Origin: a bacterium
Lineage (GTDB): Bacteria; Patescibacteriota; Gracilibacteria; Peribacterales; Peribacteraceae
Length of the DNA stretch: 45,206 nt
Direction: 5' to 3'
Assembly (NCBI GenBank): GCA_027592135.1
Contig: JAQCIJ010000006.1
Span: forward strand, 1-45,206
Shown here: positions 1,796 to 28,228 of the stretch, one piece after another
Numbering within the stretch: position 1 is the first letter of the stretch
Layout of the letters: every line of letters begins with the position of its first letter
The notes under the pieces: generated by a model
Seen by the model: only the letters and a program-made list of their open reading frames with translations
What the model was told of the DNA's origin: nothing
Databases searched by the model: none
Made by a program: the position numbers and the translations under genes

Positions 1796-3190
1796 ATGAA
1801 GAAATCGGAAGCGATCTTCGGCGTACTGCGTATCCCTATCGATGCATTGGCCGTCTTTGCAGCTCTACTGCTTGCGTATCGCTTGCGTCAGATGAATATC
1901 GACCTGATCCCTGGTGTGCAACTCCTGGACCCTGCGACGACACTCCCCGACCTCGAAGATTACGTATCACTCTTTGTGATCCCTGGGATTCTCGGATTCC
2001 TCTTTTTTGCGGCAACACTCAAAATGTATGTGTTGCTTACGACACGTAGTGCGTGGAATGAAGTAGGTAAATTACTTATCGCCAGTTTCTTGTGGCTTGT
2101 TGCCGTGATTGCTTGGTATTTCCTCGTCAAAAAACAACTGTTTTATTCGCGCATACTTCTCGTGCACTGTGCATTTTTTATCGCAGTGTTTAGCATGATT
2201 GGTCGCTCATCGGTCCTTTTGCTACAGCGTGCATTTTTGCATTGTGGCATCGGAGTGCGCTCGGTGATTTCTATTGGAGGACAGTCGATTGTAAAAGCTG
2301 CTAAGCAGACTCTTGTTGATGACGTTCGCTATAACTATCTCGGACATGTTCAGACGTTGGCAGAAATAAAATCATTACGAGATACCCAACCGATCGACCT
2401 CGTATTACAGACAGATCCAGACCCAAAAAATTCTGTAACGAACGCACTGATCGAGTATTGCAGAAGTGAGCATATTCACTACGCGTTCTTACCACCAGTG
2501 CTTGCAGAAAACCCACACCAATTACGTACAGATCGTATCGGCCTTGTACCGATGTTGTCGTTTAGGCCTACACCACTCGATGGGTGGGGGCGCGTCTTTA
2601 AACGGGCGTTTGATATTGTCGGTAGTCTCATTTTGATTCTACTATTACTCCCAATCCTTTGTATCCTCTGCATCCTCTGCATCCTCTTACAGGGCTTCCC
2701 TATCTTTTACATATCTCGCCGCACAGGTGATTCCTCTCGGAGCACCATTCCCGTCCTCAAATTTCGTACAATGATCCGCGATGCCGATACGAAAAAAGCA
2801 GCGCTTACAGCAAAGAGTCACCGTACAGATGGGCCATTGTTTAAAATAAAAAATGATCCACGTGTGACGCCACTTGGCCGCATGTTCCGTCGGTTCTCTC
2901 TAGATGAATTGCCACAGCTTTTCAATGTCCTTGTCGGACACATGTCGCTTGTGGGGCCGCGTCCACATTTACCAGATGAAGTAGACCGTTACTCCAGTTA
3001 CGAGCGTCGTGTCTTTGCGGTAAAGCCAGGAATAACTGGTCTTGCACAGGTCTCTGGACGCAGTGACTTAGTCTTTAAAGAAGAAGTACGCCTCGACTTA
3101 AAATATATCGAAGAATGGTCACTACGTTTAGATCTCTGGATACTCTGGAGAACGATTTTTGCAGTACTCAGAAAGAATGGAGCAGATTAA
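1796..3190 (+). CDS. Polyprenyl-phosphate sugar-1-phosphate transferase (WbaP/WcaJ type)
   Basis: This integral membrane enzyme starts surface polysaccharide synthesis by moving a sugar-1-phosphate from a UDP-sugar to undecaprenyl phosphate. The 464-aa layout is complete: four N-terminal membrane segments (about 8-140), a Rossmann-like middle (about 150-250), a fifth hydrophobic segment (about 268-295) and the catalytic domain. In the latter, VLKFRTM (about 322), DELPQLFNVL (about 370), SLVGPRP and KPGITGLAQVSGR are the family's signatures. Sugar specificity cannot be read. A TAGAAT -10 box at 1783-1788 is only 7 nt before the ATG, suggesting a leaderless mRNA. The segment ILCILCILCIL (DNA about 2659-2689) is encoded by a 9-nt tandem repeat, probably slippage-made and tolerated because it stays hydrophobic. 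Confidence 0.9.
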   Translation: MKKSEAIFGVLRIPIDALAVFAALLLAYRLRQMNIDLIPGVQLLDPATTLPDLEDYVSLFVIPGILGFLFFAATLKMYVLLTTRSAWNEVGKLLIASFLWLVAVIAWYFLVKKQLFYSRILLVHCAFFIAVFSMIGRSSVLLLQRAFLHCGIGVRSVISIGGQSIVKAAKQTLVDDVRYNYLGHVQTLAEIKSLRDTQPIDLVLQTDPDPKNSVTNALIEYCRSEHIHYAFLPPVLAENPHQLRTDRIGLVPMLSFRPTPLDGWGRVFKRAFDIVGSLILILLLLPILCILCILCILLQGFPIFYISRRTGDSSRSTIPVLKFRTMIRDADTKKAALTAKSHRTDGPLFKIKNDPRVTPLGRMFRRFSLDELPQLFNVLVGHMSLVGPRPHLPDEVDRYSSYERRVFAVKPGITGLAQVSGRSDLVFKEEVRLDLKYIEEWSLRLDLWILWRTIFAVLRKNGAD

Positions 3191-10864: not shown

Positions 10865-11048
10865 AAGAAGAGGCCGATGTGTGCGTATAAATTTCCCTAT
10901 GGTACCAAAATGTTACCAAAGTATTGTGTATTAGCGAAAAAGCTGATGTTGTACTGTATCGAAAATGTATTGTGATCACCTACGCAATAACGCCAATTGG
11001 AAAAATCACCGCATGCACAGTACACTACCCCAAAGAATCTGCGTCTCC

Positions 11049-14000
11049 ATGCGAAAAACTACTGCAATTTACACTGGCTTCATAGCCCTTGCACTCGTCG
11101 CGGGCGCCTCTGTTTCTTCTCAACCACTCGGAAGTTTACTCGCAGATTTTATTACACCGTCGGAGTATGGTGTGGAGTACTATTTCCCTCCAGAGACACA
11201 AGAAGGTGTAGTGCTCAAGCCCAATACCCACAACTATGTATCGTGTACTTTGGATGGAACACCGAGTATTTTACAGTCCGCATTTGCAGACGATTCTAGT
11301 AGAACCTATTGGATACGCGAGGAGCCTCCACTCTATTCTCGTAGTAGTGTGCAGGTGCGTGGAAATGCTCCAACGACACTATTCGAAAATATTGGGGGCA
11401 GATGGAGGTCTCTCTGGACACGAAATAGACAAAGTAGTTCTGCGACACCCGCAGAAACAGTATCTGATGATGAGAAAGTGCATTTCTATTCTTCAAGTGT
11501 TTTAGCATTGCGTCCAGAGCTCGCTGCAAAAAGCACGTTAACAACATTTAAAGGAGGGGTACTGTACTACATCAAAACAGACGAAGACCTCGAGTTTGTC
11601 TGTCCAGAAGGTGTACTTTGTGGTGATGGTCAGTGTGAAGAAGGAGAAAGTGCACTGATCTGCCCAGAAAATCAACCGTGTGTAAAATCGTGTGAAGCAG
11701 ACTGTGGTGCAGCACCTGTCGTACAAGATTTCTGTCTACCATGTGGAGAGACTTGCGAAGCGTGGCACATGGGACAGCCAAGCCTTGGATGCTCTGCGAA
11801 TACACCAGGGATGACCTGTGCTTTTGAGAGTGGGGTGTGTATACAAACGAATGCAGCGTCTTCTGTTGCATCATCGCAAGCTTCACAGGAACCAGCATCA
11901 GTTACATGTACAGACCCTTCTCTTACAATACTTGATGGAACAGTGGATATTGGATACCTTCCATCACGTATTGTCGCTGGAGATTTCAATGGAGACGGAA
12001 ACGGAGACATCGCAAGTTTATTTAATCCGTCTAACATCTCTGTTCATTTTGGCAACGGAAACGATTCGTTTAATGTAGCAGGGGTAATACCAAATTATGA
12101 GTGGACTAACATGACCACTGGAGATTTCAATGGAGATGGAAACACAGATATTGCAGCAATACGAAGAAACCCAAGTCATAATGGTGGATATTATCTACAT
12201 ACGTTTCTTGGTAGCAATAACTCCTTTATCCAGGCAGAAGGTGTACGTATAAATACAAGTAGTCATAGCAATGGCATAGTTAATGCTATGACTACTGGCG
12301 ATCTCAATGGCGATGGAAATCTAGACATTGTCACTGCTAATCGTAGCAACTCTGTCTCCATTTTCATTGGAGACGGAAATGGTTTCTTTGGTGGTTTTCC
12401 TGGCAGCTTTGGTGCTTCCAACAATCCGAACGACATTACTCTCGCCGATTTCAATGACGATGGGAACATAGATATCGCGACAGGGAATTCAACCGATCCA
12501 GAGATTGCCATTCTCTTTGGAGACGGAAATGGTTCTGTGGATTTAAGACAATCCTTTGCTATTGAAACTACTAATCCACCTGCTCCCTTTACTACTAGCG
12601 ACTTCAATGGTGATGGATATGCTGATCTGGCAATGGAAAATGACAGTGTCAGCACCGTCTCCATCCTCTTTAACGATGGTAATGGCACATTTACCAACTC
12701 CTCCGATGTTACTGTGGATGCTGATGATCTTGATGTCAATTTGGAATCTGTCATCAGTGGCGACTTCAACGCTGATGGGCATGCCGATATCGCAACGGCA
12801 AATGGAATATCCGATACGGTTTCTATTGTATTTGGCGACGGAAGTGGCTCTTTTAGTACTCCATCACATTTTACTGTAAGTGGCCCTAATCAAATTATTA
12901 CGTATGACTTTAACGGTGATGGTGTACCAGATATTGCAACATCCAATCGCAACGGTACAGCGACTTTCTTGTTGAGTGAATGCACAAGTAGTATTTCATC
13001 AACATCTTCCACTGCTATAGCGTCATCGCAACCTTCGGCACCTGTTGCATGTAACGATGGCATTGATAATGACGGAGATGGTGATATTGATCTCGAAACA
13101 AAACTACTTGGCAGATTTGATTATGGAAACGATAACCTTCAATCGCCAGACGTGTTAAATCGGTGGGGCACCCGTGCACCATGGATAGATTCCGGTCAAG
13201 TTGGTATTCGCGGAGAGGTGAATGTACTTGATCCGTCGGGTGACTATATGTATCAGGTCAGCTTGGCAGATGATCGTGGAAAGCAACCCCCTGGCGATGT
13301 AGGCTTAATAGCGAGGAGAATTAATGTGAATACAATGAGCCTCGATGGCATCGCTTCTATTGATATTCCTTCAGAGTTTTATGAGGGTGTTGCTTTTAAG
13401 AGTGTCTATTTAGCTTCAATGGATAAGCCTGGCGGAGCTCTTTATATTATTTCAAAGTACGAAAGTGTAACACCAGAGAATGCATTTCAGAAAAATCTAT
13501 TCTCAAAGCTCGATACGAGCACGATGGAATTCGTAGATCAGATAGAGCTGCTTCCAGAAACAACTAATCGCATAGTTGATAGCTTGATTGTCGATACATA
13601 CGATCAGTATGCCTATATAACGTATGTATCACCTAATGGTGAACACAATGCAACGGTGAGAAAAATAGATCTGTTGACAAATGAGGTTATCGAAGAAAAG
13701 GTTTTAAATGACCTTCCTACAAATTCTGCTAATCATTTTGTAATTCACGACTTCAAAACAAAGCAGCTCTATATTCTTTCATCAACATTACTGACAGGGA
13801 CGCCCAAAAAAGTATTGAGAGCAACGCTCTCACGTATTTCTACAGAAGATCTATCTTTCCAAGGAACAGTGACTCTCGGCGAACATGACGAGGAGGCATT
13901 ACAGGCAACACATTGGATAGATGGGAATCGAAAATATGGATATTTCCAATTAGATGAAACACATATCGTCAAAGTAGACCTAGGGAATTTCAGTATAGAA

Positions 14001-17000
14001 AAAATCACTACCATACCAGCAGCAGCAATACTTGCTCATCGTAAGCAGTTATTAGAAGTAGGCAATGGCAATACAGACTTAGGACAGAATTCAGAAATTA
14101 TTAGACATTCCATGCAAGTTGTAGGATTTGCGGAAGACGATGCTATTGGAGCATCGAGCAATGCATGGGAGTCTTCTATTCAAGCAGGACAATTAGCCTT
14201 AGGAGTGAATGCAAACCGAGTATACGATAGTAATATCTATCAGTATTCTCTTGGAGATCGTGGGTGCTTGAATCTACAAGATACATCAGAAGAACATGTA
14301 CCCGCTATTGGCGAGAGTCGCTCTACACGTGTGGCACTACAGCAATCTACAGCAGAACTAATAATAATTGAACCAACAACTACGACACAGTGGCAACCAA
14401 ATACACTTCAAACTCTTCGTTGGACAGCACCGGCAAATCCCAATTCATTTGTTCCGTATTCTGATGAATTCATGTACGAATATTCCCTCGATAACGGAGC
14501 AACATGGATTATGGCGAATGACAGTCAAACAGCATTCCGCAACGGAAATAACGAATACCAAATGTACGCTACGATCTATAACGATGCATCAGAGTGTATT
14601 AGTTCTCCCCATGGTTGTCAGCAGTCACAGTTTGCCATTGGCTTCCCGCAACTTGTTCTGTTCTATGGATTACGCACGCAAACAAATCCACAAGTAGCCG
14701 TAGGACAACAAGCATCCTTCAGATTGCCAGATGATGCACAGTCCGTTCAGTTCCGTGTTATGAATGTTGCCAATACAGCGTTAACAGATACGACGATAAA
14801 TATTACACGTATAGCATCAGTAGGTACGATTGCTTCGTCACAACCCTCCTCTCTTGCTACTGTTGTAGCCACAGAGAATACGACAACATTTACACAGTGC
14901 AGTGTATGTGAGCAGTGTGGAGTAGGAATAGGTCTTTGTAGTGCAAGCAAATGCACAGGGCAGTGTGTGTTCGAGCAAAATTCTGTATGGGGAGTCTCAA
15001 TACTGGGTGGAAGTTGCACGCCAAGCCCACAACTGTGTCAGAGTAACGTACAAAGTCTGCAACCACAGATTTGTAAGCAAAATCCTACAATCAATCCCCT
15101 AGAGGGGCTGGATATCCCTGCACTGTCTGATGTGTATGCCGATTTCGATCCTGTAGGTCGCACAGCGTATTTTATTGGGACACCTGGGACACCGAACGTC
15201 CCTACAACAAGCTCATCGGCAAGTAGATCTCTTTATGCCTTACATATTGATACAAGACAGGTGATAGAATATACATTGCCACATCGATACCATTTACCAC
15301 CCATGGTGGTCTGGAGTCCCGAAGTACAAAAACTCTTCCTCTTTGGTGGGGCAATTTACGAAGGAGATACTCCGACGGCTTCAGCAAATATTTATGCATT
15401 TACTCCAGCAGATACGATCGTTGAATTTGTCGGTGTTATGCCAAAGTCGCGTACAGTGGCAACACCAGTTCGCGTTCCAACGAGCGGAGACATCTACCTA
15501 TTCTTTGGAAATCAGGTGATAAGCACGACACAATCACCGCAATTTCTCACTGACGTTGCCGTCTTTAATCCTCGTACAGGAGTGACAATCATTAAGCCAT
15601 TACGCATAAGCGTCCAAGGTGGTCTTCCACGAATAAAGCCTGTAGTGTTTTGGAACAATGCAACACAGCGTATTGCTTTAAGTACAGCCAAACAGTGGTT
15701 TGAGTTTGATACAAATAGTGCAGAAGTTACACCAGTAGAGACGTACCCAAGTACAGCATTACTCAGCAATAGATATGGTACGTACGTTGTGGCAAACAAT
15801 GAGCTTGTTAACATGAATTACTTTGCGACTGCTCCAGATTTTATTACGAATCTCGCAACAAGAATCCGTACAGATTTTGTGACAGGCTTTGCAGCCATAG
15901 CGACAGAATCTAAGCAGCAGCATGGAGTTGCCTCGTACATTAATAATTCTGGTGAGACATACACGCCAATACGTCAGCAGTATGCATCGGTATATGATGC
16001 AACAACACAACGAATATATAGCATTGGTGGATGTGGGTATGGACAGGATTATATTAAAGGTCGACAAGCATCCAGCTGTCGTACCGTACTGGAGTACTGT
16101 GTCGAAGGATCATGTTGCAGTCCACAGACACCACTTCCTGTACCAGAAAAACAGGTAGTTGCATTACAACTTGGCGTATCAAATCCGGTATTACATGGTG
16201 CAGCACCTATGGAATGTAACGAATGTGAACAGTGTGGCAGCGGTGCAGGAGACTTCTGTGAAATACATGAATGCACAGGAAAATGTGATTATGTCAGAAA
16301 TTCTGTATGGGGTGTTCCTTTACCTGGAGGAACATGCACATCGAAAGCAGAATGTTCACTACCGCCACCAGTCGCATGTGCAGATGGCATCGATAATGAT
16401 AACGATGGTGGTGTCGATGTAAAAAGTGAGCTTATTGGTCGCTATGAAGACTCAAGCGATGTATTCAGGTTGTACGAAAAAGATGCATCTATCAAGTGGC
16501 CGTATGTACGAGAAAATGGGTTCTACAGCGATGGCACTAAAGCATTTGCGATCCTTGATCCATCTGGAGAATATATCTACGAAGGATTCGTCTCAGATAG
16601 CGGAAAAAGCAGACGAAAGCTTACCTTTGTAAAAATAGCAACAGATCCGATGAGGAGAGTGTCTGCTATCGATGTGCCATTAGATGCGTCACTAAAAGCC
16701 ACAGCTGACTTTATTGATTTCAGCAGAGCATCAATGGATCAAGCAAATGGTGCACTCTACATTCTGGGTACATATAAAAACGTTTCTACAGCATCTACAG
16801 CATATGATAAGCAGACACTGACAAAAATACATACGGAAACTATGGAGGTGGAAGAGCAGATTCTTCTTCCTCTTCCAGAGAGGTCAAATGCTACAGGTTT
16901 TGTCGTCGATACACATGAACAGTATGCGTATGTTTTCTTCCAATCGTCACTGAGCTTTAATACAGCTCCATCAATTGCAAAAATAGATCTTGTAACAAAT

Positions 17001-20000
17001 GAACTTGTGCGAATACAGCAATACGAAGATCTCCCAAGCCCATTAACAAATGGTAAATTTATTTTGCAAGATACGGAGAATCAAACATTGTACTTTACTG
17101 CGACTCAGACTGTTCGCAACCAAGGACAACCTCTCTACTCAAACATTCTTATTGGTCGCATTAATACAGAAGACCTATCTCTGGATGGCGACGCATCATT
17201 CCGTCTACCGAATGATGCAATCGGACTAGAACGTAGTAACAATCATTGGCTTGATGCATTGTATCAATATGGATATTTCCAGATATCGCGAAAGCATATT
17301 GCAAAAATACAGCTTGAACCCTTTTCTGCCGCTGGAATTACAACACATTCTAGTAGTGATACGATTGCTGTCTCTGGTATCAATCCGTATAAGGATCAAA
17401 TCCTATCCCTCGCAATTACCGATGGAGCCATGCCAATTAAGCAGATTACTCTTAGCTCGATAGCAGCTGCAGGTGCAAGTGATGGCATTGGTGTACATAG
17501 CAATGCATGGCAATTCCCTATGCCGTTATTAAGCGTATCGATTGATGCAAAGGGGCAGTTTGGATATACCAGAGATTTGTACAAATTTGCTTTGGGTGAC
17601 GCAGGATGCAGTGATGCTGCAGACACGAGTGAGGATAGCGAGGTAGTGCCTACAGATAACCGCCCTATACGCACTACCCCTGTTACTCCACTCGAATGCA
17701 ACGATTGTGCCGCTCTCTCCGAGAGTGAATGCACACGTGATCCTTGTGTATTTGAACCATTTAATGGTGTATGCCAAGCACAACGACAAATCTGTGGAGA
17801 ACCTGCTCCACCAGGGCCAGAACCAGAGCCAGAACCAGAAATTATTCCTCCTCCTGCGAGCTCGTCATCGTCCTCCTCTTCTGCATCGACAACACCCCCT
17901 CCTCCAGTGGCGACTCCTCTTACTGTTTCGACAGAGCTGACATCATCAGTAAATGCGTTTAACACGGTGACATTTACTCTTGAGTACACGTTCACCAATG
18001 CAACAACAGCGGCACAGAACGTCTCTTTTGTACAAGAGATGCCTGCAAACACAACAGCATCAAATCCAGAAAAATGCACCCGCAATACCGTAACACGTGC
18101 ATTAACATGTTCCGTAGGAGCACTCGCTCCTAATGAGACAAAAACACTATCAATATCGCTACAATTCTTTGCGACGATGGAAGGAAGTGTTGGGTGTGGA
18201 GATAGCAGGATGTTGCCACAATCCGTTGTCACAACGACAACAACAGGAATTGTTATTGTCAATAATCAACCACAATCAACAGTAATTTCCCGCAGATGTA
18301 GTGGGGCATCGTCTTCAACCCCTCCACCGCCTCTACCGGGGACATTGACTGTTAACACAACACTCGTTCCAGATACAGGGAACACCAATGATTCAGCATC
18401 TACGCTTACATTCACCATTACCAATGGTACAAGGTCTGCGGAGAACGTAGTACTTGTGCAGCCGATGCATACAGACACGTTCGCGCTTTACAGTGGACCG
18501 TGTGCCTTTTCTAAATCTACAAATCAAGTGATGTGTAATTTCCGTACAATCGCACCAGGTGCAACAGTGACACAATCGTTTTCGGTAAGAGTGAAGAATT
18601 ATGTCACATGTGAAGCATCAACATTGCGCAACTTACCAAGATCAACGGTCACCACAACGACAACTGATATTACTGTGCAAAACAATCAGCCAGACCCAAC
18701 AGTAATTTCCCGCAGATGTAGTGGGGCATCTACTCTTACGGTTAATACAAATCTCGTTCCATCAACCACAAGTGATACAGCATTTACCATGAACTACACA
18801 TTTATCAATGGCTCTAGAGAGGCACGTGATGTGACGTTTAGGCAGCCGCTACTCTCTGATGTTGTTTCGTATTACACCGGACCATGTACTAACGATGGAA
18901 CAGCGGTGAGTTGTAATCTTGGCAGACTTGCACCGGGGGCAACAGTGACACAATCACTCACTATTATCCTCATGAATAGTGTGGCCTGTGGGCAAACACG
19001 CTCATTGCAAAAAACGACTGCAACAACGTCAACGACAACTATCACGGTCACAAATAATCAGCCAAATTCTACAGTGCTGACACGTCGGTGTAGCGGATCT
19101 TCTTCTTCTTCTTCTTCTTCTTCTTCATCTGCAGCACCAAGCGCTAGTGTACGTATTGTTACGCCAACAGTGGGCACAGTGTGGAATGGAAACGTCTCTG
19201 CCAATATCGACTGGGAAACAAGTAATATTACACTTGGTGACGATATCCTTTACGAAGTAGATATTTCCTTAGATAACAAGCAAACATGGACAAATATAGG
19301 CGGTGCAAGTTATTACTATGACCCAGAGGAAGAAGTTGATGTTATCATTCGGCCTTCCATAGAAGATCGTACTGGTAGATGTTCGCTAAGAGGAGGAGAT
19401 TATCCATCAATATCACTGGAGAGAAATGCTCCTAATTCTGAAAAATGCACAGCAGTGCCTCAGATGCGACCTGGACAGATTGCGTATGTGCGTGTGACCG
19501 TAAAGCGCCTCAATCCGAATGGAACCAACACCGCAAATATGCATATCACAATTGTTAGTGCCGAAAGTACACCATTTACTGTTGCATTTGACGAGAGCCC
19601 TCTGCGTGCTTGTGCAGAGGCAGACAACTGGACGACAGTGTCGTCGACTCCATTTAATACGAGTGACACAAAGCTCACGGCAGGAGTATTTGGAAATTCT
19701 ATAATCACATATACTCAAGGGCTCCATCGCTACAGTGCAGATGAAGCGTGGCACACGATAGGAGACAAAGCCTACGTATTAGGAGAAACTCCGAAAGACG
19801 TTCTTGTTGTACGTGGTGACACCATATTTATGGGTAAATTCTATAGCTATGCTAATCAACGAAACTTGAAGTTTGAAACATGGAGTGCAGCAGATGGATT
19901 TAATATGATTCGCATCCCAGGTTCTACTCCAGGGACAACAGCATTTGCCTCTATCGCATTTGAAGAAGGAGACTATATCGAAGGTATATACGAAGATACC

Positions 20001-21530
20001 GATGCGCATTCGTTCTATATCAAACGCTTTAGCGATCGCTATCAGAGATCATTCTTACATCTCATCAATGTTACTACGATTGAAGCAGGACAGTTGTACT
20101 CAGCTACTGGAGTAGTAGAGCAGCGTATGCAACCAATCTCCTACAATACCACAGAGCAAAATCTAGAGCATAACGGTGTGGAATATGAAGTGAGTGATAA
20201 AGGTGCTATTCGTTGCCGTAAAACTCCAGGAGTACACCAAGGAACACGCGGTATCTTCGGAGAATTACCAGTGGATTCTGGACTCATTTGGGACCCGAAT
20301 GCCCCAGCTACTTCACTAGAATTTAGCAATCAGTGCCGAACATCAGATGAGTTACATCGCGTACAAAAAGATATCAATACCGTGCGGGATGCATCCTACG
20401 GATGTGCCAAATTTATCTTTGCGCATGACAAGCTGTATTGCAGTACAATAGTACGTAATAGCAGGGAAAATCCGTTCGCAACATTCTTAAAACATACGTA
20501 TGGATTCTTTGTAATAGAAGGAGGTCAAAATACTGTTCTTGTTAGTCAGGCATTACGTGAGCTTGAAGGGAATTTCCAGCAAAATATCTACCATCAATTC
20601 TTTGTAGCAGACGATCGCGTATTTGTTGGCACATGGCTAGGTGATCAAAATCAAAGGACGACAGAACTGGCACTCTACGAAATGTCAGACAGTGGCATGG
20701 TTGATCTCGGAACGATAACAGCAAGTAGTACAAATGGATTTACAAACTGGACTGATGTCACGGTTGTATCTGGTGTTCCGTACGCTGTGACATCCTATGG
20801 GCAGGTAGTACGGTTTGAGAGCGGGGAGGCAACAACGATGCGCGCTGCAGACGCTGCACACTATAGAGATGCACCACAACTCGAAACGATAGGTAGTACG
20901 TTGTACCTCGGAATTGTCGATACGCTCTTTGCGATCAATGGAAATGTTGCTTCGCCGATCACAATGGAATTCCCACCACTTGTTGCTGATAGGACAGCAT
21001 TAAATGGAAGAAAAATGAAGGATATGATTGCCATTGAAAATATGCTCTACTTCATTATTGGAGATACAGTTATGGCATATGATGCCGCTTCATCTACATG
21101 GTCTGATACAGATCTGACATTAACACGTAGATTTGCCTCTGATCAGTTCCCGTTCTCACTCTTCGACAGACCAATGTTAGACGCACACAGAAAAGGGAAC
21201 GATCTTGTAATCCGCACTGCAGATCGTATCATGCAACTGAAAAATGGCGATTGGTACGAACTGTTTAAGCATCCTAGTGCCTACAGCTCCGTCTATACAT
21301 TTGGCATGACAGATCAGTTTATCTACGAGACAGACAGCAGTAGTCCGAGCCATATTCTCTGTAGAGCGTATCCAAGTGGAACCATAAGCACAGCATCGCG
21401 CTCTTCAGGTAATAGTTTCACAGCATCCCTCCTCAGCACTGTCGGTACATCGAAGCAAACACTACCGATCCTCACACTCTTTGCACTCGTGATGATCGGC
21501 GGATATCTCTACAGTCACAAGCGACAATAA
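11049..21530 (+). CDS. Giant multidomain surface protein with FG-GAP, propeller and DUF11-like modules
   Basis: About 3493 aa, exported. I chose ATG 11049 because it begins a textbook signal peptide (MRKTTAIYTGFIALALVAGA); in-frame ATGs at 10965 and 11010 only add a polar extension. In order: a Cys module (CGDGQCEEGES, about 190); eight or so FG-GAP/VCBS repeats (DFNGDGNxDIA, about 300-645) that resemble Ca-binding loops; CNDGIDNDGDGDIDL followed by a roughly 400-residue propeller-like module (about 670-1070); a CEQCG Cys module; a Kelch-like block (about 1360-1670); a second Cys module; and a second DGIDNDNDGGVDV plus propeller copy (about 1776-2190). Then come a Glu-Pro and Ser linker, three DUF11-like domains of about 140 residues, poly-Ser, a C-terminal propeller (about 2860-3450), and one membrane helix with a basic tail (LPILTLFALVMIGGYLYSHK). 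Probable adhesin or cell-surface scaffold; the ligand is unknown. Confidence 0.85.
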   Translation: MRKTTAIYTGFIALALVAGASVSSQPLGSLLADFITPSEYGVEYYFPPETQEGVVLKPNTHNYVSCTLDGTPSILQSAFADDSSRTYWIREEPPLYSRSSVQVRGNAPTTLFENIGGRWRSLWTRNRQSSSATPAETVSDDEKVHFYSSSVLALRPELAAKSTLTTFKGGVLYYIKTDEDLEFVCPEGVLCGDGQCEEGESALICPENQPCVKSCEADCGAAPVVQDFCLPCGETCEAWHMGQPSLGCSANTPGMTCAFESGVCIQTNAASSVASSQASQEPASVTCTDPSLTILDGTVDIGYLPSRIVAGDFNGDGNGDIASLFNPSNISVHFGNGNDSFNVAGVIPNYEWTNMTTGDFNGDGNTDIAAIRRNPSHNGGYYLHTFLGSNNSFIQAEGVRINTSSHSNGIVNAMTTGDLNGDGNLDIVTANRSNSVSIFIGDGNGFFGGFPGSFGASNNPNDITLADFNDDGNIDIATGNSTDPEIAILFGDGNGSVDLRQSFAIETTNPPAPFTTSDFNGDGYADLAMENDSVSTVSILFNDGNGTFTNSSDVTVDADDLDVNLESVISGDFNADGHADIATANGISDTVSIVFGDGSGSFSTPSHFTVSGPNQIITYDFNGDGVPDIATSNRNGTATFLLSECTSSISSTSSTAIASSQPSAPVACNDGIDNDGDGDIDLETKLLGRFDYGNDNLQSPDVLNRWGTRAPWIDSGQVGIRGEVNVLDPSGDYMYQVSLADDRGKQPPGDVGLIARRINVNTMSLDGIASIDIPSEFYEGVAFKSVYLASMDKPGGALYIISKYESVTPENAFQKNLFSKLDTSTMEFVDQIELLPETTNRIVDSLIVDTYDQYAYITYVSPNGEHNATVRKIDLLTNEVIEEKVLNDLPTNSANHFVIHDFKTKQLYILSSTLLTGTPKKVLRATLSRISTEDLSFQGTVTLGEHDEEALQATHWIDGNRKYGYFQLDETHIVKVDLGNFSIEKITTIPAAAILAHRKQLLEVGNGNTDLGQNSEIIRHSMQVVGFAEDDAIGASSNAWESSIQAGQLALGVNANRVYDSNIYQYSLGDRGCLNLQDTSEEHVPAIGESRSTRVALQQSTAELIIIEPTTTTQWQPNTLQTLRWTAPANPNSFVPYSDEFMYEYSLDNGATWIMANDSQTAFRNGNNEYQMYATIYNDASECISSPHGCQQSQFAIGFPQLVLFYGLRTQTNPQVAVGQQASFRLPDDAQSVQFRVMNVANTALTDTTINITRIASVGTIASSQPSSLATVVATENTTTFTQCSVCEQCGVGIGLCSASKCTGQCVFEQNSVWGVSILGGSCTPSPQLCQSNVQSLQPQICKQNPTINPLEGLDIPALSDVYADFDPVGRTAYFIGTPGTPNVPTTSSSASRSLYALHIDTRQVIEYTLPHRYHLPPMVVWSPEVQKLFLFGGAIYEGDTPTASANIYAFTPADTIVEFVGVMPKSRTVATPVRVPTSGDIYLFFGNQVISTTQSPQFLTDVAVFNPRTGVTIIKPLRISVQGGLPRIKPVVFWNNATQRIALSTAKQWFEFDTNSAEVTPVETYPSTALLSNRYGTYVVANNELVNMNYFATAPDFITNLATRIRTDFVTGFAAIATESKQQHGVASYINNSGETYTPIRQQYASVYDATTQRIYSIGGCGYGQDYIKGRQASSCRTVLEYCVEGSCCSPQTPLPVPEKQVVALQLGVSNPVLHGAAPMECNECEQCGSGAGDFCEIHECTGKCDYVRNSVWGVPLPGGTCTSKAECSLPPPVACADGIDNDNDGGVDVKSELIGRYEDSSDVFRLYEKDASIKWPYVRENGFYSDGTKAFAILDPSGEYIYEGFVSDSGKSRRKLTFVKIATDPMRRVSAIDVPLDASLKATADFIDFSRASMDQANGALYILGTYKNVSTASTAYDKQTLTKIHTETMEVEEQILLPLPERSNATGFVVDTHEQYAYVFFQSSLSFNTAPSIAKIDLVTNELVRIQQYEDLPSPLTNGKFILQDTENQTLYFTATQTVRNQGQPLYSNILIGRINTEDLSLDGDASFRLPNDAIGLERSNNHWLDALYQYGYFQISRKHIAKIQLEPFSAAGITTHSSSDTIAVSGINPYKDQILSLAITDGAMPIKQITLSSIAAAGASDGIGVHSNAWQFPMPLLSVSIDAKGQFGYTRDLYKFALGDAGCSDAADTSEDSEVVPTDNRPIRTTPVTPLECNDCAALSESECTRDPCVFEPFNGVCQAQRQICGEPAPPGPEPEPEPEIIPPPASSSSSSSSASTTPPPPVATPLTVSTELTSSVNAFNTVTFTLEYTFTNATTAAQNVSFVQEMPANTTASNPEKCTRNTVTRALTCSVGALAPNETKTLSISLQFFATMEGSVGCGDSRMLPQSVVTTTTTGIVIVNNQPQSTVISRRCSGASSSTPPPPLPGTLTVNTTLVPDTGNTNDSASTLTFTITNGTRSAENVVLVQPMHTDTFALYSGPCAFSKSTNQVMCNFRTIAPGATVTQSFSVRVKNYVTCEASTLRNLPRSTVTTTTTDITVQNNQPDPTVISRRCSGASTLTVNTNLVPSTTSDTAFTMNYTFINGSREARDVTFRQPLLSDVVSYYTGPCTNDGTAVSCNLGRLAPGATVTQSLTIILMNSVACGQTRSLQKTTATTSTTTITVTNNQPNSTVLTRRCSGSSSSSSSSSSSAAPSASVRIVTPTVGTVWNGNVSANIDWETSNITLGDDILYEVDISLDNKQTWTNIGGASYYYDPEEEVDVIIRPSIEDRTGRCSLRGGDYPSISLERNAPNSEKCTAVPQMRPGQIAYVRVTVKRLNPNGTNTANMHITIVSAESTPFTVAFDESPLRACAEADNWTTVSSTPFNTSDTKLTAGVFGNSIITYTQGLHRYSADEAWHTIGDKAYVLGETPKDVLVVRGDTIFMGKFYSYANQRNLKFETWSAADGFNMIRIPGSTPGTTAFASIAFEEGDYIEGIYEDTDAHSFYIKRFSDRYQRSFLHLINVTTIEAGQLYSATGVVEQRMQPISYNTTEQNLEHNGVEYEVSDKGAIRCRKTPGVHQGTRGIFGELPVDSGLIWDPNAPATSLEFSNQCRTSDELHRVQKDINTVRDASYGCAKFIFAHDKLYCSTIVRNSRENPFATFLKHTYGFFVIEGGQNTVLVSQALRELEGNFQQNIYHQFFVADDRVFVGTWLGDQNQRTTELALYEMSDSGMVDLGTITASSTNGFTNWTDVTVVSGVPYAVTSYGQVVRFESGEATTMRAADAAHYRDAPQLETIGSTLYLGIVDTLFAINGNVASPITMEFPPLVADRTALNGRKMKDMIAIENMLYFIIGDTVMAYDAASSTWSDTDLTLTRRFASDQFPFSLFDRPMLDAHRKGNDLVIRTADRIMQLKNGDWYELFKHPSAYSSVYTFGMTDQFIYETDSSSPSHILCRAYPSGTISTASRSSGNSFTASLLSTVGTSKQTLPILTLFALVMIGGYLYSHKRQ
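18278..18730 (+). repeat. Exact 33-nt repeats at DUF11-like domain ends
   Basis: The 33 bases at 18278-18310 recur exactly at 18698-18730 (core AGTAATTTCCCGCAGATGTA), a spacing of exactly 420 bp = 140 codons, the length of one DUF11-like domain. The third domain end (near 19075-19095) is diverged. This indicates a recent duplication or conversion between the first two domains. Confidence 0.85.
19097..19130 (+). repeat. (TCT)n tract encoding poly-Ser
   Basis: Nine or more consecutive TCT triplets encode a serine run that joins the DUF11-like domains to the next module. A triplet repeat can change length without frameshift, and a similar mixed Ser stretch lies near 17864-17895. Confidence 0.85.
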
Positions 21531-26254: not shown

Positions 26255-26566
26255 AACTTAAAAGTTTAAAGGTTCAAAACTTGACGGGGCTCTTCGACTT
26301 CTCGCTACGCTCGTCGCTCAGCATTCGACTCTTCATAGATAAAGAGTGGCCCGTAGCGAAGCGGAGGACCATGAGCGAACGAAGTGAGTCGAATGGTCAG
26401 CTAAATGGTTCGTTTGAGTATATTCTGATGTTCTGGACGACTCGTGGCAAACCCATTGATTCTATTAAGTATTCTTATACTCCAATACGCCCTAATTGCC
26501 AAAGGGGGGCCGATCACAAGGGCTTAAAATCTAGATTGGTAGCTACAAATGGCTAAAACACTGCAA
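26255..26566. other. Intergenic stretch with inverted-repeat element; no gene recognised
   Basis: Bases 26291-26400 hold a composite inverted repeat: CATTCGACTC (26322-26331) pairs with GAGTCGAATG (26386-26395). Around it are CGCTACGCTCGTCGCTC and AGCGAAGCGGAGGACC, resembling the 'agcgaagcgagtcgaag' repeats dispersed in many CPR genomes. An open frame crosses it (26281-26556), but it has low-complexity SERSES-like sequence from the repeat, no promoter and no recognisable domain, so I do not call it a gene. Confidence 0.6.
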
Positions 26567-26594
26567 TTGACATTCCGTCATTACCTGCTACCAT
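26567..26594 (+). promoter_or_regulatory. Promoter of the arginine-attenuator leader
   Basis: TTGACA (26567-26572), a 16-bp spacer and TACCAT (26589-26594). The predicted start lies at or just before ATG 26602, so the first leader peptide would be translated from a leaderless mRNA. Confidence 0.7.
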
Positions 26595-26601
26595 AGCGAC
26601 A

Positions 26602-26664
26602 ATGAAGTTCTTGATTCATCAGATTATTTCTCGTCGCCGCACCTCTTCAGAGGTGACGGGCTAA
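26602..26664 (+). CDS. Arginine-attenuator leader peptide 1 (20 aa, RRR)
   Basis: MKFLIHQIISRRRTSSEVTG and stop TAA. Codons 11-13 are CGT CGC CGC (26632-26640), three consecutive arginines placed directly before hairpin strand 1. The ATG is 7 nt after a -10 box. A ribosome starved of Arg-tRNA would stall at RRR and mask strand 1; a ribosome reaching the stop at 26662-26664 covers strand 2. This is the geometry of trp/his-type leader peptides. The gene downstream is ArgA-like, so the sensed amino acid matches the pathway. Confidence 0.8.
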   Translation: MKFLIHQIISRRRTSSEVTG

Positions 26665-26719
26665 TTCGTATCCAAACTGTAGCGTCTCCTCTGTAAATTA
26701 TTTCCCGCAGGGGATTTTT
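26637..26719 (+). promoter_or_regulatory. Transcription attenuator 1 (alternative hairpins plus terminator)
   Basis: Three exclusive pairings are visible. 1:2, CACCTC-TTCA-GAGGTG (26640-26655). 2:3, CAGAGGTGACG (26648-26658) with CGTCTCCTCTG (26683-26693), 10 of 11 pairs with one U-U mismatch (antiterminator). 3:4, TCCTCTG (26687-26693) with CAGGGGA (26708-26714), including one G-U, followed by TTTTT (26715-26719) as terminator. Stalling at RRR frees strand 2 to pair with strand 3 and prevents termination. Confidence 0.8.
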
Positions 26720-26730
26720 CTTATGTACCC

Positions 26731-26796
26731 ATGATTATTTACCTAAAAAGCACTGTGCGCCGATGCCGTACTTCCTCCACGGAGAGTACAGGCTGA
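26731..26796 (+). CDS. Arginine-attenuator leader peptide 2 (21 aa, RRCR)
   Basis: ATG 26731 to TGA 26794-26796. The peptide ends STVRRCRTSSTESTG, clearly related to the end of leader peptide 1 (RRRTSSEVTG). Arg codons CGC CGA and CGT surround one Cys codon at 26758-26769, directly before strand 1 of a second hairpin set. No Shine-Dalgarno is visible. A weak TTATGT/TATGTA box lies just upstream (26721-26727), so it may be made from the read-through transcript or from its own leaderless start. Confidence 0.75.
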   Translation: MIIYLKSTVRRCRTSSTESTG

Positions 26797-26853
26797 CGTA
26801 TATCGAAAAGCCAGTAGCACACTCTCTGTGGAGGCTCACTCGGAGAGTTTTTT
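26768..26853 (+). promoter_or_regulatory. Transcription attenuator 2 (alternative hairpins plus terminator)
   Basis: 1:2, GTACTTCC with GGAGAGTAC (26768-26789). 2:3, CCTCCACGGAGAGT (26774-26787) with ACTCTCTGTGGAGG (26821-26834), a 14-bp helix with one G-U (antiterminator). 3:4, ACTCTC (26821-26826) with GAGAGT (26843-26848), helped by an inner GTG/CAC pair, then TTTTTT as terminator. The perfect pair GTAGCACA (26814-26821) and TGTGCTAC (26855-26862) encloses the terminator. The order of elements matches attenuator 1. Confidence 0.8.
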
Positions 26854-26890
26854 CTGTGCTACAACAAATGATTTATTCCTACCACCTACT

Positions 26891-28228
26891 ATGACTATCA
26901 CACTTTCATCAACCATCGCACAACACTTCAAGCAAGAGCTTGCGGGACACACCGTAGCGCATAAAGTATCTGGTTCAGCCCTCGAGAATCCTGAGATTCG
27001 TGGAGAAGTACTGAGAGGCATACAGACTCTAATGAAGCACAATGTACAGTGTCTCCTCATCAGCGGTGCCGGTTCGAGTTTGGATCAAGCTCTTGGCACG
27101 AAGCTCTCTCATCCAACAACTAATCTCCGTGTCACACCCAAAAAAGACATTCCACATATCGAGGAAGCTATTACTACCATTGGTAGAATATTTTCAGAAC
27201 ATTGTGAAAGATTAGACATCCCTTACGAGGTTTTACCTCACTCAGTAACTCAGGCTATAAGGTTGCTGGATGGACACAAGGAAACAGGGGGCATTGTCGG
27301 CATGAATGGCAATGCCATTCACCGTGTTCTCAAACAAGGTAAACTTGCTGTACTTCCCTTTGGGGGGACAGACTCTTCTGGAAATACATTGAACGTCAAT
27401 GCAGATGATGTAGCTGCCAGGGCAGCAGCAGAAGTTCATGCTAAGAAATTGATTATGTATACAAATGAAGAAGGCATATTGATGCCCGATGCTAATGGCA
27501 AACTTCAGAAGATAAACTTTCTCGACTTTCATCAATTGTTCCATTTAACACGGGCGATAAATGCCGATGGAGATTTTGTAATTGATGCGGGGATGCTTCC
27601 GAAGGTAAAAGCAATCCTCGAAGCACTGACCTATGGTGTACCTCAGGTACATGTAGTTCAGGCAAAAGCAAAAGCACTATTTGAAGAACTTTTTACCAGA
27701 ACAGGGAGTGGTACGCTTATTGAAAAGGAACCATTCCTAATTCTCGACTATCCAACACGGGAAAAAAGCTTCAATGATATTCTTCAGATAAGAGCAGAAT
27801 GTTCAGAGTTAAGTACTCCATTGGGGGTACCATTCCTCAAGCCTTTGACTCCCGAAGAGTTAAAAAGACTATTGCCATCCACCCTTACCTTACGCCAAAG
27901 AGATTTTCTGGTGGGTACTGTGTATTTTGATGCAGTCAGCAACCATGCAGACACCGCATATATCGGTGGGTTTGCAGTTGGAGAGAATCACCAGGATTCA
28001 GGCTATGGCAAAGTGCTGCTTAGAAGCGCTCTCGAACAAATTGAAGAAGCTGGATTTAGCAAAGCTATCAGTATTACTGCCTCAAATGCAGTAAAACACA
28101 TGTATGAAAATCTTGGCGCAAAAGAAGATTCAAGCAATTGGTCAGATGTTTTGACATCAGCGAAGCAACGCTATGGAATCGACCAAGACCTCGTCAGTCT
28201 CTATACATTCGATGTTCCAACTTCTTAA
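26891..28228 (+). CDS. ArgA-like amino-acid kinase/GNAT protein (N-acetylglutamate synthase or kinase-synthase)
   Basis: This 445-aa protein has an amino-acid-kinase domain (about 15-285) and a C-terminal GNAT acetyltransferase domain (about 330-440), the plan and size of ArgA. It would acetylate glutamate at the start of arginine synthesis. Visible: LLISGAGSSLD where NAGK has HGGG; LNVNADDVAARAA near 170; VIDAGMLPKVKAILEAL; TGSGTLI; and GNAT motif A near 365-375 (QDSGYGKVLL). Catalytic kinase residues cannot be confirmed by eye, so synthase, kinase or both remain possible. I chose ATG 26891; a GTG at 26828 lies inside the terminator hairpin. A short frame (ATG 26868 to TGA 26892-26894) overlaps this start and could couple translation. 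Regulation by arginine attenuation fits the assignment. No other arg gene is in the window. Confidence 0.8.
   Translation: MTITLSSTIAQHFKQELAGHTVAHKVSGSALENPEIRGEVLRGIQTLMKHNVQCLLISGAGSSLDQALGTKLSHPTTNLRVTPKKDIPHIEEAITTIGRIFSEHCERLDIPYEVLPHSVTQAIRLLDGHKETGGIVGMNGNAIHRVLKQGKLAVLPFGGTDSSGNTLNVNADDVAARAAAEVHAKKLIMYTNEEGILMPDANGKLQKINFLDFHQLFHLTRAINADGDFVIDAGMLPKVKAILEALTYGVPQVHVVQAKAKALFEELFTRTGSGTLIEKEPFLILDYPTREKSFNDILQIRAECSELSTPLGVPFLKPLTPEELKRLLPSTLTLRQRDFLVGTVYFDAVSNHADTAYIGGFAVGENHQDSGYGKVLLRSALEQIEEAGFSKAISITASNAVKHMYENLGAKEDSSNWSDVLTSAKQRYGIDQDLVSLYTFDVPTS

Follow-up and report, generated by a model that had tools for sequence, protein, structure and literature searches.

The window (the whole stretch of DNA that was analysed, 45,206 nucleotides from an ultra-small, uncultured bacterium with a genome of the Candidatus Peribacteraceae type, UBA11694 and STB_179 being related MAGs) very probably contains, at 26567-26862, two ribosome-mediated, arginine-responsive transcription attenuators in series. 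A promoter is followed by a first leader peptide, a terminator, a second leader peptide and a second terminator-like hairpin, upstream of a gene that encodes a kinase-acetyltransferase (Table 1). The anatomy of this region, the spacing of its promoter, the conservation of its Arg codons and pairings, its arginine-gene neighbourhood and the absence of Rho were established; from them we infer that the leaders are translated, that ribosomes stall on them and that transcription terminates behind them, as well as the direction and sharpness of the response. The promoter (TTGACA-16-TACCAT), the RRR leader of 20 codons and the U-tract terminator on which the original prediction was founded are present base for base, and its second leader of 21 codons (RRCR), with a second terminator-like hairpin, is present as stated. 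A T-box or known riboswitch at 26567-26862 was ruled out, there being no Rfam match within 26450-27000 up to E = 1. Two other features of the window were recorded: an imperfect 16-nt inverted repeat upstream of the promoter (26316-26401, GCTCAGCATTCGACTC / GAGTCGAATGGTCAGC, copies 54 nt apart) and a single open reading frame of 3521 codons (10965-21530).

Table 1. Coordinates of the tandem arginine leader and of the gene downstream of it in the window.
Feature	Position	Strand	Evidence
Promoter TTGACA-16-TACCAT, drives the leader	26567..26594	+	Layout kept in relatives
Leader peptide 1, MKFLIHQIISRRRTSSEVTG, 20 codons, RRR	26602-26664	+	Arg run kept in homologues
Element 1 strands 1 and 2, ACCTC TTCA GAGGTGACGG, within the peptide coding sequence	26641..26659	+	Folding energies
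Element 1 strands 3 and 4: antiterminator 3' arm GCGTCTCCTCTG and intrinsic terminator TCCTCTGT...GCAGGGGA-TTTTT	26681..26720	+	Masked folding, arm-swap
Leader peptide 2, MIIYLKSTVRRCRTSSTESTG, 21 codons, RRCR	26731-26796	+	Model R3
Element 2 antiterminator hairpin (strands 2:3), CCTCCACGGAGAGTAC..GGCT....AGCC..CTCTCTGTGGAGG	26774..26835	+	Covariation
Element 2 terminator-like hairpin (strands 3:4), inner helix and TTTTTTC, within outer helix GTAGCACA/TGTGCTAC	26813..26862	+	Arm-swap, masked folding
Putatively regulated gene, amino-acid kinase and GNAT fusion, N-acetylglutamate synthase/kinase-like	26891..28228	+	PF00696 4.1e-21, PF00583 4.9e-9

Strict promoters of the form TTGACN-15/17-TANNNT occur just twice in the 45-kb window (26567 and 36965), and only at the former does a start codon coincide with the predicted start of transcription, the ATG at 26602 being 7 nt past the -10 box TACCAT. 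The arrangement TTGAC(A)-16-TAnnnT was found upstream of nearly all of 21 Peribacteraceae leaders, the exceptions being a spacer of 18 nt (G064) and a TTGCAT box (G022 and G080). A GTG or ATG start codon is located 6-9 nt past the -10 box in 20 of the 21 first elements as scored; the remaining one (G015), re-read by eye, fits with a GTG downstream of the ATG that had first been chosen. Thus, with a start codon where transcription is expected to begin, the sensor mRNA of leader 1 is, judging from promoter spacing, probably leaderless. A rho gene was found in none of the 74 Peribacteraceae genomes (search at E up to 1e-20), and termination in the lineage should therefore be intrinsic, presumably in every case.

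Strand 2 of element 1, inside which the stop codon of leader 1 (26664) is located, has two alternative partners: strand 1 (-7.3 kcal/mol in the window) and strand 3 (-17.6 kcal/mol, TCAGAGGTGACGGGCTAA with GTAGCGTCTCCTCTGT). Transcription would begin on the leader 1 start codon or no more than a few bases from it, so that the ribosome would load at the 5' end of the RNA. When charged Arg-tRNA is ample, the ribosome would reach the stop codon and cover strand 2, strands 3 and 4 would pair, and RNA polymerase would terminate; when it is scarce, the ribosome would stall on the CGY run and cover strand 1, strands 2 and 3 would pair, and transcription would go on. The TTTTT of terminator 1 ends at about 26720 and the open reading frame of leader 2 begins some ten nt further, at 26731, where a transcript that had read through would meet a second leader peptide, and with it a repeat of the same test, before the kinase-acetyltransferase gene. 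Thus, when arginine is plentiful, two terminators would have to fail before the gene is transcribed. In three genomes (G093, G087 and G031; loci L062, L069 and L073), leader 1 has an early stop (RRRTS or RRRAS) that lies in the loop of the 1:2 hairpin and not past strand 2.

The element was sought in other genomes with a covariance model (R1) that was trained only on six first elements, all from leaders of argA-like genes, and was run over the 74 genomes of the family. Nearly all of the new matches that were inspected contain 3-4 Arg codons, and some matches precede genes unrelated to the training set, namely argG (G093) and a dimethylargininase-like gene (G002 and G015) and, tentatively, an argF-like gene that is cut off after 23 codons by the end of its contig (G095). 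With a second model (R2), 353 genomes of the class were searched, which brought in G084 (argB-like gene), G028 (argF) and, from a second family, three genomes whose leaders (e.g., MTYPKLYLHNRRRRYRRR) are upstream of argS, argG and argF; an even draw of 380 genomes of the phylum yielded nothing further that was strong. In total, the element was found in 25 genomes, 11 of which have it in tandem, and in two (G015 and G028) the leader is single at one gene but tandem at another. The closest orthologues of the window gene (G016 and G096, 66-68% identical) are preceded by the full tandem, orthologues at 30-46% identity (G015, G064, G067 and G078) by a single leader, and a match to its GNAT domain only (G008) likewise by a single leader. 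Five model matches were judged false, one being inside a tRNA region (L117) and four having no Arg leader (L118, L119, L121 and L123). Contigs of Planctomycetota MAGs (L018 and L019, match at 3001) encode orthologues of the window gene (56-58% identical) without an Arg leader; horizontal transfer or mis-binning is possible. In the second family, a protein of 141-144 amino acids with no family match is encoded between the leader and argF or argG (L120 1009-1443, minus strand; L122 1809-2234, plus strand).

Across the relatives, the genes behind the leaders are argA/B-like genes, argC (as a second gene, following the kinase-acetyltransferase gene in G016), argG, argF, argS and a gene for a dimethylargininase-like enzyme. 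The window protein itself, which begins with the ATG at 26891, matches PRK05279 (1.2e-24, yet under the cut-off of that model), and among solved structures it is closest to acetylglutamate kinases and a synthase, but it falls short of every curated cut-off and is only ArgA/ArgB-like. The genome of the window (98% complete) has no detected argB, argC, argG or argH. Thus, the predicted agreement between the amino acid sensed and the pathway controlled holds for the arginine genes of relatives, whereas for the window's own gene it rests on those relatives and on the shared leader. A conserved protein of 375-417 amino acids (MKNHC.YIISEPPQTPWWGHG) is found behind tandem leaders (L061 206-1459, minus strand; L067 1803-2930, plus strand) and is only weakly dimethylargininase-like (NF045659, 2.8e-5); it is perhaps an unrecognised enzyme that modifies guanidine groups. 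Highly diverged members of the kinase-acetyltransferase group also occur behind a leader (L064 1627-2658; L071 509-1492, minus strand; L068 1626-2615), with no Pfam or NCBIfam match.

Conservation in homologous leaders had been set beforehand as the test of the original prediction, and the homologues were found to keep their Arg codons through synonymous changes (CGT 60, CGC 47) and their pairings through compensatory ones. When pairing arms were exchanged between species and the energies of native and swapped combinations were compared, the 2:3 pairing of element 1 was stronger in its native form (mean -22.2 versus -16.7 kcal/mol, z -6.5), as was the 3:4 pairing (mean -12.9 versus -10.5 kcal/mol, z -4.3 to -5.0), with permutation p <= 5e-5 for both in the non-redundant set. 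Of the mutually exclusive pairings that had been proposed, 2:3 and 3:4 therefore covary, but 1:2 showed no significant covariation in the arm-swap comparison. The corresponding values for 2:3 and 3:4 of element 2 are z -2.6 to -3.1 (3:4, z -3.1), and compensatory changes are present in 5 of the 15 consensus pairs of its antiterminator hairpin (10 sequences). The 14-bp antiterminator described earlier for element 2 is part of a longer conserved hairpin.

The RNA was also folded with the bases under the ribosome masked, each state being scored by how probable the terminator pairs themselves are; an earlier score, any pairing of strand 4, was dropped because strand 4 is able to fold into small local hairpins, which makes that score uninformative. 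For element 1 of the window the terminator has a probability of 0.95 with no ribosome, of 0.00 when a ribosome is stalled at the first Arg codon and of 0.94 when it has reached the stop codon; the inner helix of element 2 gives 0.00, 0.00 and 0.90, respectively. Both elements of the window are thus predicted to switch between stall and stop, as had been anticipated, and the values obtained without a ribosome point to a default state of off for the first switch and of on for the second. The switch was predicted in 20 of 27 first elements, static folding of the other 7 giving no clear switch, and in all six second elements that have a candidate inner terminator. Because dinucleotide shuffles switch as well (29 of 500 for leader 1 and 45 of 500 for leader 2, i.e., 6-9%), the fold by itself is no proof, and the decisive evidence is comparative.

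The original prediction held that the whole design of element 1 is repeated in element 2. A second Arg leader and a second hairpin are indeed present, but element 2 is not a plain copy. In the tandem genomes its 3:4 hairpin (-22.6 kcal/mol in the window) consists of an inner helix (arms ACTCTCTGTG...CTCGGAGAGT in the window), usually followed by a U-rich stretch of 7-9 nt, and an outer GCAGCAC/GTGCTGC helix, which closes the structure and is separated from the gene start by 16-30 nt (27-30 nt in most cases). The window, G002, G093 and G031 have a good inner U-tract and G010 and G087 a weaker one; the tandem genomes G016, G096 and G015 have none but retain the outer helix. A covariance model of element 2 (R3) has strong matches (E below 1e-15) solely beside element 1 in tandem genomes, and the second element is, by this sequence criterion, a conserved module of its own, distinct from the first. 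The models of elements 1 and 2 detect each other, which suggests an old duplication; global alignment of the two elements gave moderate support only (z 3.3, 1.1 and 1.5), and the cross-matches of the models appear to be the better evidence. A third small open reading frame, overlapping the gene start in the window, was rejected as its frame is not conserved across relatives. In G016 (L016 2830), leader 2 has ATA where relatives have ATG, and either its start codon is non-standard or the second sensor has been lost.

Since the family has no Rho, copies of element 2 that have no U-tract are either defective or act differently, and Rho-dependent control of them was ruled out. It is conceivable, though on balance doubtful, that element 1 is a true arginine attenuator and that element 2 acts at another step, either on mRNA stability or as a hairpin that can do without a U-tract, with the outer helix as its working part. 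The outer helix is kept by compensatory changes in the copies that have no inner U-tract (G016, G096 and G015b), at its short distance from the gene start, which fits such a role; against it, the inner helix of the window, G002, G093 and G031 has a U-rich tract immediately behind it, and in masked folding element 2 responds to a stalled ribosome and to one at the stop codon by the logic of element 1. There is no support for sequestration of the start codon, the start region of the gene being mostly unpaired in every simulated state. A broader proposal is likewise tentative: the Rho-less CPR lineage might run its arginine regulon via a leaderless attenuator cassette whose two successive ribosome sensors, both for one amino acid, have become specialised, the first as a terminator switch of the ordinary kind, off in the absence of translation, and the second, on in that state, having a conserved output hairpin (outer GCAGCAC/GTGCTGC clamp, U-tract bulged or missing) that works by an undescribed step.

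Two attenuators in series that respond to the charging of Arg-tRNA remain the preferred reading. The peptides might instead arrest the ribosome as nascent chains at high concentrations of arginine or a related metabolite, in the manner of speFL or the fungal arginine attenuator peptide, and residues past the Arg run are alike between species (TSSEVTG, ASAEVTV); however, the codons past the Arg run double as RNA strands 1 and 2, and these residues are conserved because their codons form those strands. The residues before the run, where a would-be exit-tunnel sequence would be expected, are highly variable (MKFLIHQIIS, VSSLVIRNV, MILALSLSL), leaders of the second family read RRRRYRRR, and it would be surprising if argG, argF and argS were induced when arginine is high, all of which makes arrest peptides very unlikely. 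Leader-peptide attenuators that respond to ribosome-targeting drugs exist, some with Arg-containing peptides, and the Peribacteraceae leaders might accordingly sense ribosome-acting drugs or starvation, i.e., translation in general, instead of arginine; this too is highly improbable, as the genes downstream are arginine genes of several unrelated families and not ribosome-protection genes. A chance arrangement in a hairpin-rich intergenic region, to which single features such as the folding switch (in 6-9% of shuffles) could be attributed, is refuted by the homologues, which are conserved across species, covary in their pairings and were recovered blindly upstream of arginine genes, and may practically be dismissed. 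An RRR or RRxR motif, for its part, is more than chance would give, its probability in a random 20-codon open reading frame at the window's Arg frequency being 0.0026.

The classical ribosome-mediated transcription attenuators are the trp, his, leu, ilv, thr and phe leaders of Proteobacteria. Like the trp and his attenuators, the Peribacteraceae elements have a short peptide rich in the regulated amino acid, with a codon run kept in homologues; mutually exclusive pause, antiterminator and terminator helices (strands 1-4), with strand 1 or 2 inside the open reading frame; an intrinsic terminator; and downstream genes of the same amino-acid pathway (across relatives; argA/B-like only in the window genome). 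Unlike them, the Peribacteraceae elements respond to a putative arginine signal, are probably leaderless, belong to a Rho-less CPR lineage, form a serial pair in 11 genomes and recur before several separate arginine genes. The mgtCBR leader of Salmonella has tandem attenuators, mgtM and mgtP, which respond additively to ATP and proline (PMC3641672); it resembles the Peribacteraceae tandem in having two short open reading frames in one leader, each with its own attenuator, but its two signals are different, whereas both Peribacteraceae peptides have Arg runs and the RNA elements cross-detect, suggesting duplication. Consecutive Arg codons in a short upstream open reading frame are also found in orf34 of the Salmonella speF leader, which senses arginine via ribosome pausing, works via Rho, sequestration of the ribosome-binding site and RNase G, and controls ornithine decarboxylase (PMC6386406); the Peribacteraceae, in contrast, have no Rho and place intrinsic terminators before arginine genes. 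Attenuation has been proposed for leaderless, cysteine-rich upstream open reading frames of mycobacteria (PMC4633059), which are leaderless, as the Peribacteraceae leader 1 probably is, and likewise small and rich in the amino acid to whose pathway the downstream genes belong, but differ in that the amino acid is cysteine, the hosts are actinobacteria and, as far as the available part of that source extends, no tandem strand 1-4 terminator architecture is described there.

A search of the open-access literature found no leader-peptide attenuator in CPR bacteria, in agreement with the original prediction, nor any case in which arginine as the signal is combined with a leaderless sensor, a duplication in series and a CPR host devoid of Rho. 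The Peribacteraceae element is a new form of ribosome-mediated attenuation, the working principle of which is already known from trp and his. To our knowledge, little is known of gene regulation in the CPR (Patescibacteria), which have reduced genomes and a presumed dependence on hosts. Comparative genomics here backs a regulon for which the signal can be named, the proposed mechanism is complete and natural variants are numerous; because the element is doubled in 11 genomes, and single and doubled forms occur within the same genome, the idea that serial attenuators would sharpen the response is directly testable. These findings suggest that Peribacteraceae gauge how much arginine they have by means of the ribosome itself, apparently via leaderless sensor mRNAs, and do so without Rho.
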